From Deltaproteobacteria bacterium (GTDB lineage: Bacteria > Myxococcota > XYA12-FULL-58-9), in NCBI GenBank assembly GCA_016218825.1, contig JACRCV010000031.1:1-35036 (forward strand): 35,036 nt of DNA, written 5' to 3'. This document shows positions 24,529 to 35,036 of the stretch, piece by piece. Both the position numbers and the translations under genes were made by a program. The notes under the pieces are model-generated. The model worked only from the letters and a program-made list of their open reading frames with translations. It did no database searches and was not told where the DNA came from. The stretch's first letter is position 1, and every line of letters starts with the position of its first letter.

Positions 24529-27228
24529 ATGTCGTACGCGGCGCAGAGTTGGTTGCTGATGAGCGTGGTGGCGCTGTCGGCGTGTGGGGACAGTCACGCC
24601 ACCTGTGTCACTCACGCAGACTGCCAGAGCGGTGCGCTCTGTGTCGCGGGGAGCTGCGCCGCCCCGCCGGCCGACGCCAACGGCGACTTCGTCCCGACCG
24701 ATCGCGACGCCGACGGTGTCCCCGACGGGCGCGACAACTGCATCGACGTCGCGAACCCGGAACAGGTCGACAGCGACGGCGACGGTCACGGGGACGCCTG
24801 CGACCGCGACAACGACGGCGACGGGGTCGACGACGAGCAGGACAACTGCCCGCGGCTGGCCAACACCGACCAGGCCGATCTCGATGGGGACGGCAGCGGT
24901 GATCTCTGCGACCCCGACCGCGACGGCGACGGCATCGACGACGGCCACGACAACTGTGCCGCGGTCGCGAACCCGTCGCAGGCCGATCAGGATCACGACG
25001 GCATCGGTGACGTCTGCGACGCGGATCGCGACGGCGACGGCGTCGGCAACGAGCAGGACAACTGCCCGACCGTCGCCAACCCCGATCAGCAGGACACCGA
25101 TCACGACGGTGTCGGCGACGCCTGCGAGACCATCCCGGACCGTGATCGGGACGGGATCGAAGACCCGCGCGACAATTGCCCCGACACCCCGAATCCGGAG
25201 CAGACCGACTCGGATCTCGACAACCACGGGGACGCCTGCGATCCGCCGACCCTGCGGCAGACGGGCCTGCCGTGGAGCGCGAGCTGCAGCTTCACGCCGC
25301 CGGTCAGCCAGTTCACGCCGATGGAGAAGTGGCGCTGGCCGCTCGTGACCGACACCATCAGCTTTCCGACCAAGGTCCAGGTGATGTCGACGCCGATGGT
25401 GGCGAACCTGACCGACGACAACGGCGACGCGCTCGTCAACCGCGACGATGTCCCGGACGTGATCTTCGTGTCCTTCGACACCACGGTGGCGAGCGGCAAG
25501 GATCCCGCCGACCCGACGCAGCACAATCCCCAGGGCGGGGTGCTGCGGGTCGTGGACGGCGCGTCCGGCAAGACCCTGTGGAGCTCGGGCGGCACCGGCC
25601 AGCTGTTGGCGCCGGCGGCGAGCGTCGCGGTGGCGGACCTCGACCTCGACGGCATGCCCGAGATCGTCGCCCTCAAGTACCAGGGCAAGGGGCTGATGGC
25701 GTTCGCCGCCGACGGCAGCGTGGTGTGGGACTGCACGACCTTGGGCGCCTGCTTCGACACCGGGTCGTTGTTCAACTGGGGCGGGGTTTCGGTCGCCGAC
25801 GTCGACCAGGACGGCAGCCCGGAGTTGCTCTACGGCGCCGCCCTCTTCACCGCCGACGGCACCGCCTGGCCGGTGCAGGGCATCGACGGGACCGGCGACA
25901 ACTTCGTGTCACCGACGTTGTCGCGTCACGTCGGTCCATTGTCGGTGGCGGTCGACATCGACGGCGACGGCTCGGCGCTCGAGCTTCTCGCGGGGCGCAC
26001 CGTGTATCGTCTGTCCGTCGCTGCCGGCGCCTACGTGCGGGACGCGGCGGTCTCCGACAACATCGGGGCGGCGATCGCCGCCACGGTCACGAGCTATCCG
26101 ACGACCCAGGACGGTTTTCCGGCGGCGGCCAACGTCGACGCCGACAGTCGGCTCGAGCTCGTCCTGGTCGCGGATCAGCACCTGCTGCTCCTCGACGACG
26201 ACGGCTCGCGCATCGACAGCATCGCCGTCCCTCAGGACCCGGTGTTCGGCACCTTCGCCGGCGGGCCGCCGACCGTCGGCGACTTCGACGGCGACGGTGA
26301 GGTGGAGGTCGGGGTCGCCGGCGAGAGCCGCTACGCGGTGTTCGACCTCGTCGGCGGGCTGCTCTCGGTGCTCTGGGATCGGCCGATCGTCGAGGCCTCG
26401 TCGTCGCGCACCGGCTCGAGCGTGTTCGACTTCGACGCCGACGGCCGCGCCGAGGTGGTGTACAACGACGAGCAGTTCCTGCGGATTTACACCTACCACG
26501 GCGGCTTCCCGCCGGCCGGATACTCGGGCTGCGACGACCGGCTGTGCACCTGGGAGAGGCCGAACACCTCGTTTACCGCCTACGAATACCCGGTCATCGT
26601 CGACGTCAACAACGACGGCAACGCCGAGATCGTGGTCGCCGCCAACGACTTCGGCCGGACCGATCCCGCCGACCTCGCGGCCGGATTGGTCCCGACCCAC
26701 GGCGTCGCGGTGTTCGGCGACGCCGAGGACAACTGGGTGCCGACGCGGCGGATCTGGAACCAGCACGCCTACCACATCACCAACATCGACGAGGACGCCG
26801 TGGTGCCGCAGCTCCAGGCACCGCTCGCCGGTCACAACTCGTTCCGCAAGAACATCCAGGGGACCGCGGCGCTGCCCGACCTGCGCGCTCCGGACGCGGC
26901 GATCGAGAGCAGCATCATCGACTGGAAGTGCAACAGCCCGGGGGCGGTGGGCGTGTGGGTCGAAAACCGCGGCGCGCTGCAGCTTCCTGCCGGTGTCTGG
27001 GTGACGTTGTTCGCCGGCCCGCCGGCGACCGGCACCGTGCTCGGGCGGGGACAGACGCAAGGAGCGCTCGCGCCCGGCGAGGCCGAGCTCGTCGTCATCC
27101 CGGTTTCGGGGAGCGGCTCGGGGACCCAGGACGGTTGGGCCGTGGTCGACCTCGGCCCGACCTTTGGCGGCAACAACGAGTGCGACGAGACCAACAACGC
27201 GGTGAACCTCGGCCGCTTCGGTTGTTAG
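24529..27228 (+). CDS. surface lipoprotein with thrombospondin type 3 and VCBS/FG-GAP-like repeats
   Basis: The ATG at 24529, with AGGAG 7 nt upstream, begins a lipoprotein signal (SWLLMSVVALSAC); the product has 899 residues. A small Cys-rich segment (TCVTHADCQSGALC) comes first. About six Asp-rich thrombospondin type 3 calcium-binding repeats follow (about 50-240; DRDGDGIDDGHDNC and similar). Residues about 275-775 hold VCBS/FG-GAP-like calcium-binding blades (VAVADLDLDGMPEIV, VDVNNDGNAEIVVAA) as in secreted beta-propellers. The C-terminal part (about 785-899) looks like a CARDB-type beta domain (VGVWVENRGAL, ETNNAVNLG). It is probably a calcium-stabilised cell-surface protein for adhesion or matrix contact. 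It diverges from the propeller lipoprotein across 120 bp. Confidence 0.9.
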   Translation: MSYAAQSWLLMSVVALSACGDSHATCVTHADCQSGALCVAGSCAAPPADANGDFVPTDRDADGVPDGRDNCIDVANPEQVDSDGDGHGDACDRDNDGDGVDDEQDNCPRLANTDQADLDGDGSGDLCDPDRDGDGIDDGHDNCAAVANPSQADQDHDGIGDVCDADRDGDGVGNEQDNCPTVANPDQQDTDHDGVGDACETIPDRDRDGIEDPRDNCPDTPNPEQTDSDLDNHGDACDPPTLRQTGLPWSASCSFTPPVSQFTPMEKWRWPLVTDTISFPTKVQVMSTPMVANLTDDNGDALVNRDDVPDVIFVSFDTTVASGKDPADPTQHNPQGGVLRVVDGASGKTLWSSGGTGQLLAPAASVAVADLDLDGMPEIVALKYQGKGLMAFAADGSVVWDCTTLGACFDTGSLFNWGGVSVADVDQDGSPELLYGAALFTADGTAWPVQGIDGTGDNFVSPTLSRHVGPLSVAVDIDGDGSALELLAGRTVYRLSVAAGAYVRDAAVSDNIGAAIAATVTSYPTTQDGFPAAANVDADSRLELVLVADQHLLLLDDDGSRIDSIAVPQDPVFGTFAGGPPTVGDFDGDGEVEVGVAGESRYAVFDLVGGLLSVLWDRPIVEASSSRTGSSVFDFDADGRAEVVYNDEQFLRIYTYHGGFPPAGYSGCDDRLCTWERPNTSFTAYEYPVIVDVNNDGNAEIVVAANDFGRTDPADLAAGLVPTHGVAVFGDAEDNWVPTRRIWNQHAYHITNIDEDAVVPQLQAPLAGHNSFRKNIQGTAALPDLRAPDAAIESSIIDWKCNSPGAVGVWVENRGALQLPAGVWVTLFAGPPATGTVLGRGQTQGALAPGEAELVVIPVSGSGSGTQDGWAVVDLGPTFGGNNECDETNNAVNLGRFGC

Positions 27229-30787: not shown

Positions 30788-33409
30788 TCATACAACAAGT
30801 GTGGGATCTTCCCTAGGGGTCGGGGCGCGGCTCTTGGGCGCGGCCGTCTGCAGCCACTCGCCCAGGCGCGCCGCTTCGCGTCGGCAGAGCTCGCGTCTGA
30901 GGCGCATCGACTCCAGGGCTTTCTTCAAGGCCCGGGTCGCCTCTTCGACCGGGTGCACCGCGAAGAACGCGGCGACGTCGTCGTAGAGATCGACCGGGAG
31001 GCCGCCGGTCGCTTCGACCAAGCGCGCCAGGCCCATCGCGCCGACCTTCGGCGCCAGCGCGGTCCAGTGGGTCTTCAGGAAGGTCCAGGTGTCCCGGCCG
31101 CTCTGCCGACTCCCGAGCATCGGCGCCAGCACCAGGCGGAGTTGATCTTGGGGCAGGGTGTCGTCGAGGACCAGGCGGTGGATCTGCTTCACGGTCGGCA
31201 GATCTTCGAACCACGACAACGCGGCGATGTAACGCGACTGCAGCTCCGGGCTCATGCGGGCGCGGCGGCGCGCGTTGTAGGTGGCGAGGTAGCTCGCGAG
31301 GAGGCGGCGGTCGCCTTCGAGGGCCGCGATCTGGACGATGGTGCCGGCGAGGTTGGGCTCGGCGGCGGTCGGGTTCTTGGCCTCGGCGATCTGACGGCGC
31401 TTGGCCTCGCCGATGACCCCCGGGTCACGACCGACGCGACCCAACAGCTGGGCGAGCACCGCGCGCCGGACCGCGACCGCCGGGGACTCGTCGGGGAGCG
31501 GCTCGAAGCGCAGCTCGTCGAGCTGGGGTCCGAACATCCGGCGGACGAACGCCGCGAAGCGCGGCCGATCCTGCTCGCGAACCACGTAGTCGTCGAGGCT
31601 GCCGATGCGCATCGCGAGGGTGCGGGTCACCATGTGGTCGCGCTCCGCCGCGAGGCTCTGCACCACGTCCATGAACCGGCCGATGTCGGCGAGGCCGTTC
31701 TTGACCAGGGCCCACTGGTCCTCGACGACGCTCATCCGCTCGGCCGGGGAGAGCGACCTGAGACCGTGCTCGAGGAGGCGCGCGAGGGTCTCGTCGTCGA
31801 AGTGCATGCGGTAGAACCCGGCGGCGTCGGCGTTCGGATAGCACCACGCGACCGGCAGCTCGGCGTCGAGCGGCACCTGGGCTTCCGGCGTCGTCATCAG
31901 CAGGCGCTGGGTGTGGACGCCGTCCGCGGTGCCGACGCGGATCACGATCGGGATGTGCCAACATTGCTCGGGGCTCTTGGCCATCGCCTCGCGGTTGGCG
32001 AAGAAGCGCCGCTGCCGCAGGTGCAGCAGGGTCTTGCCGTCGCGCTTGCGCATCGACACCGACAGCAGCGGAAAGCCGGGCTCTTCGATCCACGATCGCA
32101 TCAGGCGCGCGACCGGCTGTTTGGAGGCGGCCGCGAGCGCCGCCCACAGATCGGCGCCGCGGGCGTTGGCGTCGGCGTGCGTCGCGACGTAGCGCCGCAG
32201 GCCGTCCTTGAACACCTCTTCGCCCAGGTAGCGCTCGGCCATGCGGAGCACGGCGCAACCCTTCTCGTAGGTGATGACGTCGAAGAGCTCGGTCGCCTCG
32301 GCCGGGCTCTTGACCGCGGCGTAGATCGGATGGGTGTTGTCGAGGGCGTCGGCGGAGAGCGCCGAGTGGCTGGCCTCGAGGAAGTCGTCCCAGATCCGCC
32401 ACTCCGGCTTCCAGAGATCGATCGCCTTGTAGGCCATGAAGCTGGCGAACGCCTCGTTCAGCCACAGGTCGTCCCACCAGCGCATCGTCACGAGGTTGCC
32501 GAACCACATGTGCGCGAGCTCGTGCGCGATGACCTCGGCGATGCGTTTTTGTGCGTGCCACGAGGTCGCGCCCGCCTGCATCAACAGCAGGTTCTGGCGA
32601 TAGAACACCGCGCCGACGTTCTCCATCGCGCCGGCGTCGAACCCTGGGACCGCGACCTGGTCGAGCTTCTGGTAGGGGTAGCGCGCCTTGAAGTAGCGTT
32701 GGTACCAGGGGAGCACCTGGCGGGTCACCGCGGCGGCGAACTCGGTCTGTTTCTCTTTGCCGGCGACCGCGAGGGTCCGGTAGCGCGCCGCGCCTATTTG
32801 GATCGGCTTGGTGGCGCGGTAGCGGCCGATGGTGACCGCGGCGAGGTAGGTGGAGATCACGCGCGTCGGTTTGAAGCGGTGCACGGCGCGGCCGGCGACG
32901 GTGCGGACGCTCGTTGCGACGCCGTTCGTGACCACGGTGAGCCCGGGATCGGTGCGGATCAACCACCGCAGGCGCGCCTTGAAGTCCGGCTCGTCGAAGC
33001 ACGGGAAGATGGCGCGGGCGTCGGCGGCCTCGCACTGCGAGACGATGGCGGTGTCGGCGCCGTCCTTCGCGAGGTAGAGGCCGTGCATGCTGGGGCTGAG
33101 CACGCCGGTGAACTGCAGGCGCAGCGTGGTCTTGCCGCGGGCGAGCACCTTCGGGAAGCGCAGGGTGATCGCCTGCTGTGCGCCGAGGACTTCGACCGCG
33201 GCCGGGACCGTGCGGCCGCGAACGGTGGCGCTGGCTCTTTGAATCGCGAGGTCGCGCGCGTGCAGGGTGACGGTGTCCTTCGGGGCGAGCACCTGCAGCG
33301 CGATCGTGACCTGGCCGGAGAAGCGCGGCCGGCGCAGCGAGACGTCGAGGTCGATGTCGTAGGACAGGGGCTTGGCGTGACGAGGCAGACGAAAACCGGA
33401 GGCGCTCAT
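30788..33409 (-). CDS. M1-family zinc aminopeptidase
   Basis: The 873-residue enzyme removes N-terminal residues from peptides. The N-terminal beta domain (about 1-200) is followed by the exopeptidase motif GAMEN near 260 and the zinc site HELAH near 294, with the distal Glu in WLNEAFAS about 18 residues on. The C-terminal half is a helical ERAP1-C-like domain (from about 500 to the end). No signal peptide is seen, so it is probably cytoplasmic. It is the first gene of an operon with the PHP gene and the membrane protein. A promoter-like pair ends 8 nt before the ATG, again suggesting a message with almost no leader. Confidence 0.95.
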   Translation of the reverse strand: MSASGFRLPRHAKPLSYDIDLDVSLRRPRFSGQVTIALQVLAPKDTVTLHARDLAIQRASATVRGRTVPAAVEVLGAQQAITLRFPKVLARGKTTLRLQFTGVLSPSMHGLYLAKDGADTAIVSQCEAADARAIFPCFDEPDFKARLRWLIRTDPGLTVVTNGVATSVRTVAGRAVHRFKPTRVISTYLAAVTIGRYRATKPIQIGAARYRTLAVAGKEKQTEFAAAVTRQVLPWYQRYFKARYPYQKLDQVAVPGFDAGAMENVGAVFYRQNLLLMQAGATSWHAQKRIAEVIAHELAHMWFGNLVTMRWWDDLWLNEAFASFMAYKAIDLWKPEWRIWDDFLEASHSALSADALDNTHPIYAAVKSPAEATELFDVITYEKGCAVLRMAERYLGEEVFKDGLRRYVATHADANARGADLWAALAAASKQPVARLMRSWIEEPGFPLLSVSMRKRDGKTLLHLRQRRFFANREAMAKSPEQCWHIPIVIRVGTADGVHTQRLLMTTPEAQVPLDAELPVAWCYPNADAAGFYRMHFDDETLARLLEHGLRSLSPAERMSVVEDQWALVKNGLADIGRFMDVVQSLAAERDHMVTRTLAMRIGSLDDYVVREQDRPRFAAFVRRMFGPQLDELRFEPLPDESPAVAVRRAVLAQLLGRVGRDPGVIGEAKRRQIAEAKNPTAAEPNLAGTIVQIAALEGDRRLLASYLATYNARRRARMSPELQSRYIAALSWFEDLPTVKQIHRLVLDDTLPQDQLRLVLAPMLGSRQSGRDTWTFLKTHWTALAPKVGAMGLARLVEATGGLPVDLYDDVAAFFAVHPVEEATRALKKALESMRLRRELCRREAARLGEWLQTAAPKSRAPTPREDPTLVV

Positions 33410-33446: not shown

Positions 33447-33449
33447 GGA

Positions 33450-33580
33450 CGTGGTCACGTGCCTGCTGCTCACAGACCAGGCCGCGGGCGGCATTCGGGC
33501 GACCGACGACGTCGACCTCATTGCCGGGATCGAGTCTCATCACGCGTACTACAAGTTCGCCGAGCGCTTGCCCACGGCGA
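33450..33580 (+). pseudogene. possible fragment of an AbiEii-like nucleotidyltransferase
   Basis: One plus-strand frame reads GGIRATDDVDLIAGI then ESHHAYYKFAERL. This is close to the stretch around the catalytic aspartates of AbiEii/MenA-type nucleotidyltransferases (RAT-x-DVDLIV, then YY-x-L-x-ERL). Nothing before or after fits that family, and the frame then runs into antisense of the QueC-like gene. It looks like a broken piece left by insertion or deletion. The match is short and rests on motif memory. Confidence 0.35.
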
Positions 33581-33588
33581 GGCGGGTG

Positions 33589-34140
33589 CTACGAGCGAGC
33601 ATCAAGGGCCTCTCTGTCGCGGCAGGACACGCACGTTCCGCACGGCTTCCGGCGCTTGCTCTGGCAGCTTCGCGTGAGGTGAATGGGAACGCGGTGCCTG
33701 ACGCAGTAGACCTGAATCATCCTCTTGGTCCAGCCGAGAAACGGAGTGCTCAACACGAGTTGCCCGTCGGAGTAGCCGTCGAGCACGGTCTGCATCGCCG
33801 TGAAGAAGCCCTGCGAGCAGTCGTAATAGGGCGTGCCGGCGTGAACCCCCGTCGCCACGAGCGCGGGCCCGGGCTCGAGAGCCATCACCGCCGTCATGAT
33901 TAGGAAGGCGTTCCGGCCTTGGATGTAGCCCTCCCGCGGTGGCTGTAGCCCCGCAGCTCGAACGCGACGTAGCCGCACGCGATATCGCTTCGCGATGGCC
34001 CTGGCGCTGGCGTACTCCCATGTCGCCGCCTGTTGGCCGTAGTCGACGAACAGGGCTTCCGTGTCCTTGGCCTGGGTTACGTGAAAATGAAGCGCTGCCG
34101 CAGAGTCCATGCCCCCGCTCAAGAGCACGACGCGACGCAT
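33589..34140 (-). CDS. compact QueC-like PP-loop ATPase
   Basis: This 183-residue protein has the PP-loop motif VVLLSGGMDSAA at its very start. It also has FVDYGQQAATWEYASARAIA, YIQGRNAFLIMTAV and the C-terminal zinc-binding cysteines SCQSKRRKPCGTCVSC (C-x7-C-x2-C-x2-C). All are features of QueC, which makes the 7-cyano-7-deazaguanine precursor of queuosine. It is shorter than usual QueC (about 220-240), although the N-terminus and zinc site both appear whole. Shortened QueC-like proteins occur in defence and DNA-modification loci such as Qat and some CBASS types. It sits in a mobile-element scar. Directly before its ATG lies antisense sequence of a broken recombinase, so it may lack its native promoter. 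Confidence 0.82.
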   Translation of the reverse strand: MRRVVLLSGGMDSAAALHFHVTQAKDTEALFVDYGQQAATWEYASARAIAKRYRVRLRRVRAAGLQPPREGYIQGRNAFLIMTAVMALEPGPALVATGVHAGTPYYDCSQGFFTAMQTVLDGYSDGQLVLSTPFLGWTKRMIQVYCVRHRVPIHLTRSCQSKRRKPCGTCVSCRDREALDARS

Positions 34141-34758
34141 ACCGGGTCCGGCAGGCGCGATGAAATGCTCACGTTGGAGCGGCATCAGTTCGACCGCAGC
34201 AACGGTCCGCTTCACATCGTCAACAAGCCCGACTTCCCGACACGGCTCGGCCTCGGCTGGGAGACGAAGTGGCGCAAAGAGCGCGTGCTGCCGCTCACCG
34301 ACAAGGCCGTCGAGATCCTGGCGCGCATCCCGCTCCGGGACACGTACGGCTTCGTCGGCAAGCAGAGCGACGGCAGGATCATCCCCGTGAGCCTCCTGTT
34401 CCCGATGAAGGCCTGGGTGAACGGCAAGCCCAAGCTCATCCGCTGTGCCGAGTTCAAGCACGCCTGGCGGGCACTGCAGAAGGCCGCTGGGCTCGAGGGC
34501 TTTGGCTACCAGTGGCACGACATGCGCCGCTCGTGGAACCGCTACGCCGCTGAGCGTGGCATCCCGACGACATACCGTGCCGAGTTCCTCGGCCACCGCA
34601 TCGAGGTGAACGAGGGCAACTACAAGACCGCGATGGGCTACGAGTTCATGCGCCAGAAAATGGGGCGCAGCATGGCGGAAGCAGCGGCAGAATTTTCAAA
34701 AGTTGTTCCGAATTTGTTCCACTTGAGGGCTGAACGCGACGCGGCGGCCGGTAAGTAG
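34141..34758 (+). pseudogene. 5'-truncated tyrosine recombinase (phage-type integrase)
   Basis: From 34141 the frame encodes the catalytic end of a tyrosine recombinase. It begins in the first catalytic-Arg box (TGSGRRDEMLTLERHQFD), then KERVLPLTDKA, HDMRRSW (HxxR box), LGHR and a candidate nucleophile in GNYKTA. The N-terminal arm, core-binding domain and start are missing. The upstream frame is antisense of the QueC-like gene, and the join lies exactly at that gene's start codon. The 3' end is 8 nt from the CCA end of tRNA-Gly, the usual place for an integrase at its att site. It is almost certainly inactive. Confidence 0.85.
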
Positions 34759-34766
34759 TTGAAAAG

Positions 34767-34842
34767 TGGAGCGGGCGACGAGGTTCGAACTCGCGACCCT
34801 CGGCTTGGGAAGCCGATGCTCTGCCAACTGAGCTACGCCCGC
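34767..34842 (-). tRNA. tRNA-Gly (anticodon CCC), CCA encoded
   Basis: A full cloverleaf folds on the minus strand. The acceptor stem is GCGGGCG/CGCCCGC, the D-arm GCTC/GAGC, the anticodon stem TCGGC/GCCGA with loop TTCCCAA, and the T-arm GCGAG/CTCGT with loop TTCGAAC. The anticodon CCC reads GGG glycine codons. The discriminator T is followed by an encoded CCA at 34767-34769. Its 3' end faces the truncated integrase, as at element integration sites. Read on the plus strand the T-loop is palindrome-like (GTTCGAAC). Confidence 0.97.
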
Positions 34843-35002: not shown

Positions 35003-35036
35003 TCAGTGCAGGTCCATGCGCGGCTCGCGTATGTCG
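35003..35036 (-). CDS. possible 3' end of a gene running in from the right
   Basis: On the minus strand an open stretch from the window edge ends in TGA at 35003-35005, reading DIREPRMDLH before the stop. Eleven codons are too few to identify a family or to be sure it is coding. The hairpin at 34937-34972 lies downstream of it, where a terminator would be. Confidence 0.2.
   Translation of the reverse strand, partial: DIREPRMDLH

Follow-up and report, generated by a model that had tools for sequence, protein, structure and literature searches.

The DNA adjoining tRNA-Gly(CCC) at the end of this contig is very probably a decayed tRNA-Gly island, in which a single type IV CBASS gene, cap9, survives as an early-stage relic. 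The window, i.e. the whole stretch of DNA analyzed here, is the complete contig G000:C2 of 35,036 bases, which belongs to a genome of 6.5 Mb in 121 contigs with an estimated completeness of 96.5%. All parts named in a preliminary description of this DNA, namely a nucleotidyltransferase fragment, a QueC-like gene of 183 residues, the end of a recombinase and the tRNA itself, are present in the window (Table 1). Two features had been missed there: the contig ends at position 35036, only 194 nt past the tRNA, and the 3' end of the QueC-like gene carries the start of a second frame, which is described below.

Table 1. Features of the scar at tRNA-Gly(CCC), with positions in the window, and of a related operon found elsewhere.
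Feature	Position	Strand	Basis
Peptidase M1 (aminopeptidase N/ERAP-like), flanking gene on the host side of the scar	30788..33409	-	Pfam PF01433 (E=2e-77), ERAP1_C, Peptidase_M1_N
PDC-M21B-type (AbiEii-like) nucleotidyltransferase fragment, ~40 residues, RxTxDxD, truncated on both sides	about 33454..33573	+	PADLOC PDLC04516
cap10 5' stub, start codon and ~7 codons (MLARSTR)	33582..33602	-	offset and start shared with Cap9-locus relatives
cap9 (QueC-family enzyme, type IV CBASS), 183 aa, open	33589..34140	-	profile, structure, tree and motif evidence
Tyrosine recombinase 3' part, box-I Arg to catalytic Tyr and C terminus; N-terminal half missing	34147..34758	+	Pfam PF00589 (E=4e-7)
tRNA-Gly(CCC) with encoded CCA, presumed integration target	34767..34842	-	ARAGORN
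Putative att core, last 45 nt of tRNA-Gly(CCC)	34767..34811	-	100% copies at two non-tRNA sites in G001
TIR-TGT fusion operon (other genomes and plasmids)	L245:4855-8115 (G065:C1:4672854-4676114); L265:3762-8162; L266:3762-8156; L267:3753-8164; L268:3801-8163		gene neighbourhoods

The element at tRNA-Gly(CCC)

The pieces of the scar are packed tightly. The nucleotidyltransferase fragment begins about 45 nt beyond the start of the peptidase M1 gene, the cap9 start codon stands only 6 nt away from the edge of the recombinase remnant, and 8 nt separate the stop of the recombinase frame from the tRNA, which the recombinase faces. The three scar pieces, i.e. the nucleotidyltransferase fragment, cap9 and the recombinase piece, look foreign by composition: their GC3 amounts to 0.80-0.88 compared to 0.92 in the neighbouring genes, and their codon index to 0.45-0.58 compared to 0.74-0.79, with the lowest value (0.45) found for cap9. 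All three share an intermediate GC content of 0.64-0.66, their frames are clean and there are almost no spacers between them. Elsewhere in the window, at 24549-25300, a predicted large surface protein, ordinary-looking as judged by eye, carries DxDxDGxxD calcium-binding (thrombospondin type 3-like) repeats in long succession.

The proposal that the catalytic end of a tyrosine recombinase stands next to the tRNA is borne out by the match to Pfam Phage_integrase. The piece starts at the box-I Arg region and aligns at 34% identity with a homologue from G001, a genome of the same genus, covering residues 243-422 of its 441-residue frame. The nucleotidyltransferase fragment covers positions 34-74 of the 234 positions of the PADLOC PDC-M21B model (E=3e-6). 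It has the 40-residue RxTxDxD region in common with PDC-M21B and AbiEii-like nucleotidyltransferases, but is a fragment only; a full-length PDC-M21B homologue scores 21.8 bits against AbiEii, just under the cut-off of 22.5. No plasmid matches were found for either the fragment or the integrase.

Within G001, the last 45 nt of tRNA-Gly(CCC) recur with 100% identity at two places without a tRNA call (L232:2413-2457 and L233:6277-6321). At L233, a full-length tyrosine integrase gene contains the copy within its 3' end and continues in frame across the att site (ERATRFELATLGLGN), and the L232 copy adjoins the tail of the same integrase. Exact copies of the tRNA 3' end at integrases of G001 indicate that integrative elements target tRNA-Gly(CCC) in this genus, where it is an integration hotspot. 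Although the integrase type in the window differs from that of G001, the att core of the window element probably covers the same 45 nt. Since neither a second att copy in the window genome nor direct repeats flanking the scar in the region were found, the distal end appears to be lost and the remnant is not expected to excise.

A comparison with relatives, aimed at an empty site, yielded no tRNA within the 1.5-kb flanks of the homologous peptidase gene, these flanks not being syntenic. The tRNA-Gly genes that match best in the closest relatives either form Gly(TCC) clusters or are CCC copies without linkage to the peptidase gene. Among 96 relatives no match at the level of Cap9 was obtained (best, 80 bits), which together with the foreign codon usage points to a horizontal origin of cap9. 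The preliminary description had read the locus as an integrated element cut down until the QueC-like gene was its only whole cargo; this reading is well supported by the foreign codon usage, the amputated integrase facing the tRNA, the cap10 stub and the tRNA copies in G001.

Identity of the QueC-like gene

The QueC-like gene is the Cap9 gene of a type IV CBASS. Its frame is open, with 183 residues and no internal stop, in line with the earlier description of the gene as apparently intact. Its best match among solved structures is 9NTO, Cap9 in the Cap9-CdnD complex (E=2e-38), compared to E=1e-5 for the canonical QueC 2PG3; given the strength of the 9NTO match, the frame did not arise antisense by chance. 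The PADLOC type IV CBASS QueC model assigns 219 bits to the window protein, 231 bits to the Cap9 of a complete plasmid operon and 68 bits to the housekeeping QueC of the same genome. The protein belongs to PF06508 and has the YxDC motif conserved there, but reaches 74.7 bits against the NCBIfam QueC equivalog (cut-off 150.3) and 12.8 bits against the QatC model NF041925 (cut-off 280). Its predicted structure (pLDDT 85.8, pTM 0.85) superimposes on 9NTO_B with a TM score of 0.91 and on the QueC structure 3BL5 with 0.76.

A maximum-likelihood tree of 49 sequences, comprising Cap9s, QatCs, phage QueCs and housekeeping QueCs, places the window protein inside the Cap9 group, which is set apart from QatC by a branch with 100/100 support. 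The ten-row Cap9 fork (support 96/79) contains no QueC row, and the QueC of the window genome groups with the QueCs of its phylum. The nearest sequence in the tree is that of L038 (45% identity); overall, the window protein is 39-46% identical to other Cap9s, the closest of them by identity being at 46%. When genome contigs were scanned for Cap9 relatives, a single-protein query found none and a three-row alignment query did find them; the same alignment, run against viral contigs, returned QueC-like proteins, ten of which were put in the tree, all falling outside the Cap9 fork. Two divergent proteins of the Cap9 clade, L043 and L044 from Dehalococcoidia and Cellulomonas, carry YxDT or YxDN for YxDC and thus lack the substrate-site Cys; they are possible further subtypes.

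In an ATP-dependent reaction, Cap9 attaches 7-carboxy-7-deazaguanine to the CD-NTase at its N-terminal Gly, a modification on which type IV CBASS defence depends (Wassarman et al., PMC11996544; PMC13279940). Its signature motifs have been given as LxSGGxDS, Y/FxQx5E, RN, Hx4YxDCx3F, PFx4K and CEx6CxxCxxCxD (Libby et al., PMC13329287). The window protein fully keeps five of these six (LxSGGxDS, YxQx5E, RN, Hx4YxDCx3F and PFx4K), and all Cys and the Asp of the zinc motif are present, with Gln in place of the Glu that the other nine Cap9s compared possess. It agrees with Cap9 of 9NTO in length, fold, motifs, zinc Cys and the overlap with the cap10 start, but differs by this CE to CQ exchange, by an Arg at the position three residues ahead of the first zinc Cys, where Tyr is otherwise invariant, and by having no Cap10, CD-NTase or effector alongside.

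Three other identities were considered and rejected. Housekeeping QueC (B. subtilis 3BL5 and the genome's own copy, G000:C38:7562-8272, located between xerC-like and hslV-like genes) has the PP-loop ATPase fold and active-site layout in common with the window protein, but is about 40-50 residues longer, is remote by sequence with 22% in the fold alignment, and forms a separate clade; the score of half the NCBIfam cut-off and the presence of the own copy elsewhere likewise rule it out. QatC has a QueC-type core in common with the window protein, but comprises about 400 aa with N- and C-terminal extensions, carries Thr/Thr for the Tyr/Asp substrate residues and has qatABD neighbours, whereas the window protein has its 183 aa, keeps Tyr and Asp within YxDC and stands on the opposite side of the 100/100 branch, at 12.8 bits; the genome gave no qat match at E<=1e-20. 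Phage QueC is ruled out by the position in the Cap9 clade, apart from the phage sequences. Hence, of the options raised earlier, i.e. Qat, type IV CBASS and deazaguanine DNA modification, the model scores, the tree and the cap10 overlap leave type IV CBASS and remove the other two. The refuting case named in the preliminary description does not apply, as the protein neither clusters with housekeeping QueC nor is the only QueC of its genome. As an aside, a large genome of the phylum likewise holds a second QueC-like gene beside its housekeeping copy (L247, G086:C21:70613-71203).

The cap10 stub and the lost operon

The strongest evidence comes from the 3' end of cap9, ATGCTCGCTCGTAG, which contains the last cap9 codons together with the start of a frame beginning MLARSTRL. 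This cap10 stub overlaps the cap9 stop by 14 nt and leaves a residual frame of 17 codons. A cap10-like frame starts inside the cap9 end in 7 of the 8 Cap9 loci examined, typically with ATG CTG GCG CGG (MLAR). The start offset of the window stub (-13) equals that of L039, its first six residues are those of L040, and the MLAR(S/R) start is common to the stub, L035, L039, L040, L041 and L042. The stretch partly encodes the cap9 C terminus and is thus not wholly independent evidence; independent support comes from the expected offset of the start and from the ST that follows the stop. After about 7 codons the resemblance to Cap10 ends, and the nucleotidyltransferase fragment takes over on the opposite strand.

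Checked gene by gene, L038, L039, L040 and L042, whose Cap9s are 40-46% identical to that of the window, are Cap9-Cap10-CD-NTase (CdnD) operons. Their CD-NTases start with MGGSGGG, MGSSGG or MSGGGG, and each of the four operons has an OGG-like gene, three of them also encoding a small membrane protein; a further Cap9 relative also stands in a complete operon on a plasmid. Given the cap10 start at the cap9 end and the operons of the relatives, the window cap9 is the amputated head of a Cap9-Cap10-CdnD operon.

The partners of Cap9 were not found. Neither the type IV CD-NTase model PDLC00790 nor the Cap10 model PDLC00913, which also misses some housekeeping Tgt controls, matched anything in the 96.5% complete genome at E<=0.1, nothing exceeded the SMODS cut-off in the genome, and the window contains no CD-NTase with a Gly-rich N terminus. 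The CD-NTase search consisted of PDLC00790 and SMODS, so that a very divergent CD-NTase could escape it, and partners could sit in the missing ~3.5% of an assembly of 121 contigs. The only trace of Cap10 is the stub of about 7 codons. As to other queuosine genes, which the preliminary description had suggested looking for, the genome has one QueD/PTPS gene in addition to the separate housekeeping queC, and the carboxy-deazaguanine substrate is therefore probably made.

A history in line with these data would begin with the insertion of an element, presumably by the tyrosine recombinase of the window, at the 3' end of tRNA-Gly(CCC). The element would have carried a type IV CBASS operon, i.e. 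cap9, cap10, cdnD and a 2TM effector, often with OGG, together with other defence genes. Deletions or rearrangements, in an order that can only be conjectured, would later have taken away the rest: the recombinase would have lost its N-terminal half, cap10 would have been cut after about 7 codons and fused with a piece of the nucleotidyltransferase gene, and the distal att site would have disappeared, leaving cap9 alone whole and presumably without function.

A related gene set was encountered in G065, a genome of the phylum whose QueC-like protein sits on a long branch near Cap9 in the 49-sequence tree. Here, L245 holds four closely packed genes, which encode a TIR-Cap10-like TGT fusion (PDLC00913, 80 bits), Ogg-HhH, the QueC-like protein and a ThsB-type TIR protein that starts with MGGGGGSG. 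The same four genes occur on Rhizobiaceae plasmids, with a PfkB-family kinase gene ahead (four inspected), and 13 plasmid records match most of the TIR-Cap10-like fusion; the operon is conserved between this one genome of the phylum and the Rhizobiaceae plasmids. The MGGG start is invariant in all five TIR proteins compared, and the QueC-like proteins of the operon share FPDQT where Cap9 has YxDC. The operon looks as if the Cap9/Cap10/OGG deazaguanylation module known from type IV CBASS had a TIR protein as its target, without a CD-NTase, and may be a new defence system. 'Cluster 4' QueC-like proteins with PfkB neighbours have been described as purine salvage (Libby et al., PMC13329287); the operon has a PfkB neighbour as well on plasmids, but its zinc motif differs. 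No mention of a TIR partner for a deazaguanylation module was found in the part of the Cap9/QueC-like literature that we covered, and the operon is more interesting than the stranded cap9 itself.

State of cap9 and competing readings

The open frame of cap9, with the ATP-, substrate- and zinc-site residues all kept, is what would be seen in a working enzyme or after a recent truncation, and judged by its motifs the protein could plausibly still deazaguanylate a CD-NTase. Two changes stand beside the first zinc Cys, where TYSCE has become TRSCQ. Leave-one-out comparison of the core Cap9s revealed that the window protein departs at 4 of 38 otherwise invariant columns, the most of any, compared to 0 to 3 in the others; L043 and L044 depart at 3 of 30 columns, and the substitutions are therefore not decisive. 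The Arg of TRSCQ also occurs in the QueC of the same genome (TRSCY) and thus need not be damaging, while the Glu of the Cap9 zinc motif, Gln in the window, probably sits at the position of the essential Tyr189 of E. coli QueC. With modest confidence, we take the substitutions to suggest early decay. A useful role for cap9 is doubtful because no partner was found for it, it has no context, an integrase remnant lies directly upstream and changes flank the first zinc Cys. With neither its partner CD-NTase nor Cap10 detected, cap9 is probably idle and most likely a relic without immune function. Between the relic and the domesticated gene that had been offered as alternatives, the relic is thus favoured.

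Domestication would mean that an expressed orphan Cap9 deazaguanylates the N-terminal Gly of a host protein or the CD-NTases of visiting elements. The open frame, the kept catalytic motifs and the probable supply of substrate through QueD and QueC would fit such a role; we nevertheless consider it unlikely, as no partner gene was found and cap9 has no conserved context, lacks its own promoter or a clear ribosome site with the integrase remnant 6 nt upstream, and shows foreign codon usage as well as the loss of the signature Glu. That it has been kept specifically to attach 7-deazaguanine to a host protein outside CBASS is very unlikely.

The preferred reading, a decayed island with a relic cap9, also has to be weighed against an assembly artefact, in which fragments of different origin would have been joined near the contig end of a metagenome-type assembly. 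The stop of the contig shortly beyond the tRNA and three foreign pieces with almost no spacers are what such a joining could produce, but the pieces stand in the standard arrangement of a tRNA island and have GC content, codon usage and clean frames in common, and we give the artefact a very slight chance indeed. Least probable is that the gene encodes another, divergent QueC (preQ0 synthase) of the housekeeping or DNA-modification type, brought in by a phage-like element: membership in PF06508 and the YxDC would suit it, but not the bit score at half the NCBIfam cut-off, the length of 183 aa, the Cap9 clade apart from phage QueCs, the cap10 stub or the housekeeping QueC elsewhere in the genome.

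In conclusion, the finding is ordinary in kind and informative in detail. It clearly illustrates the decay of a type IV CBASS operon to its QueC-like gene, and the stranded Cap9 can be told from housekeeping QueC by clade, length, motifs and the overlap with the cap10 start. Routine annotation would label such an orphan a 7-cyano-7-deazaguanine synthase, as happened with the plasmid Cap9. If an orphan Cap9 of this type were active, protein deazaguanylation would reach beyond CBASS and perhaps Qat.
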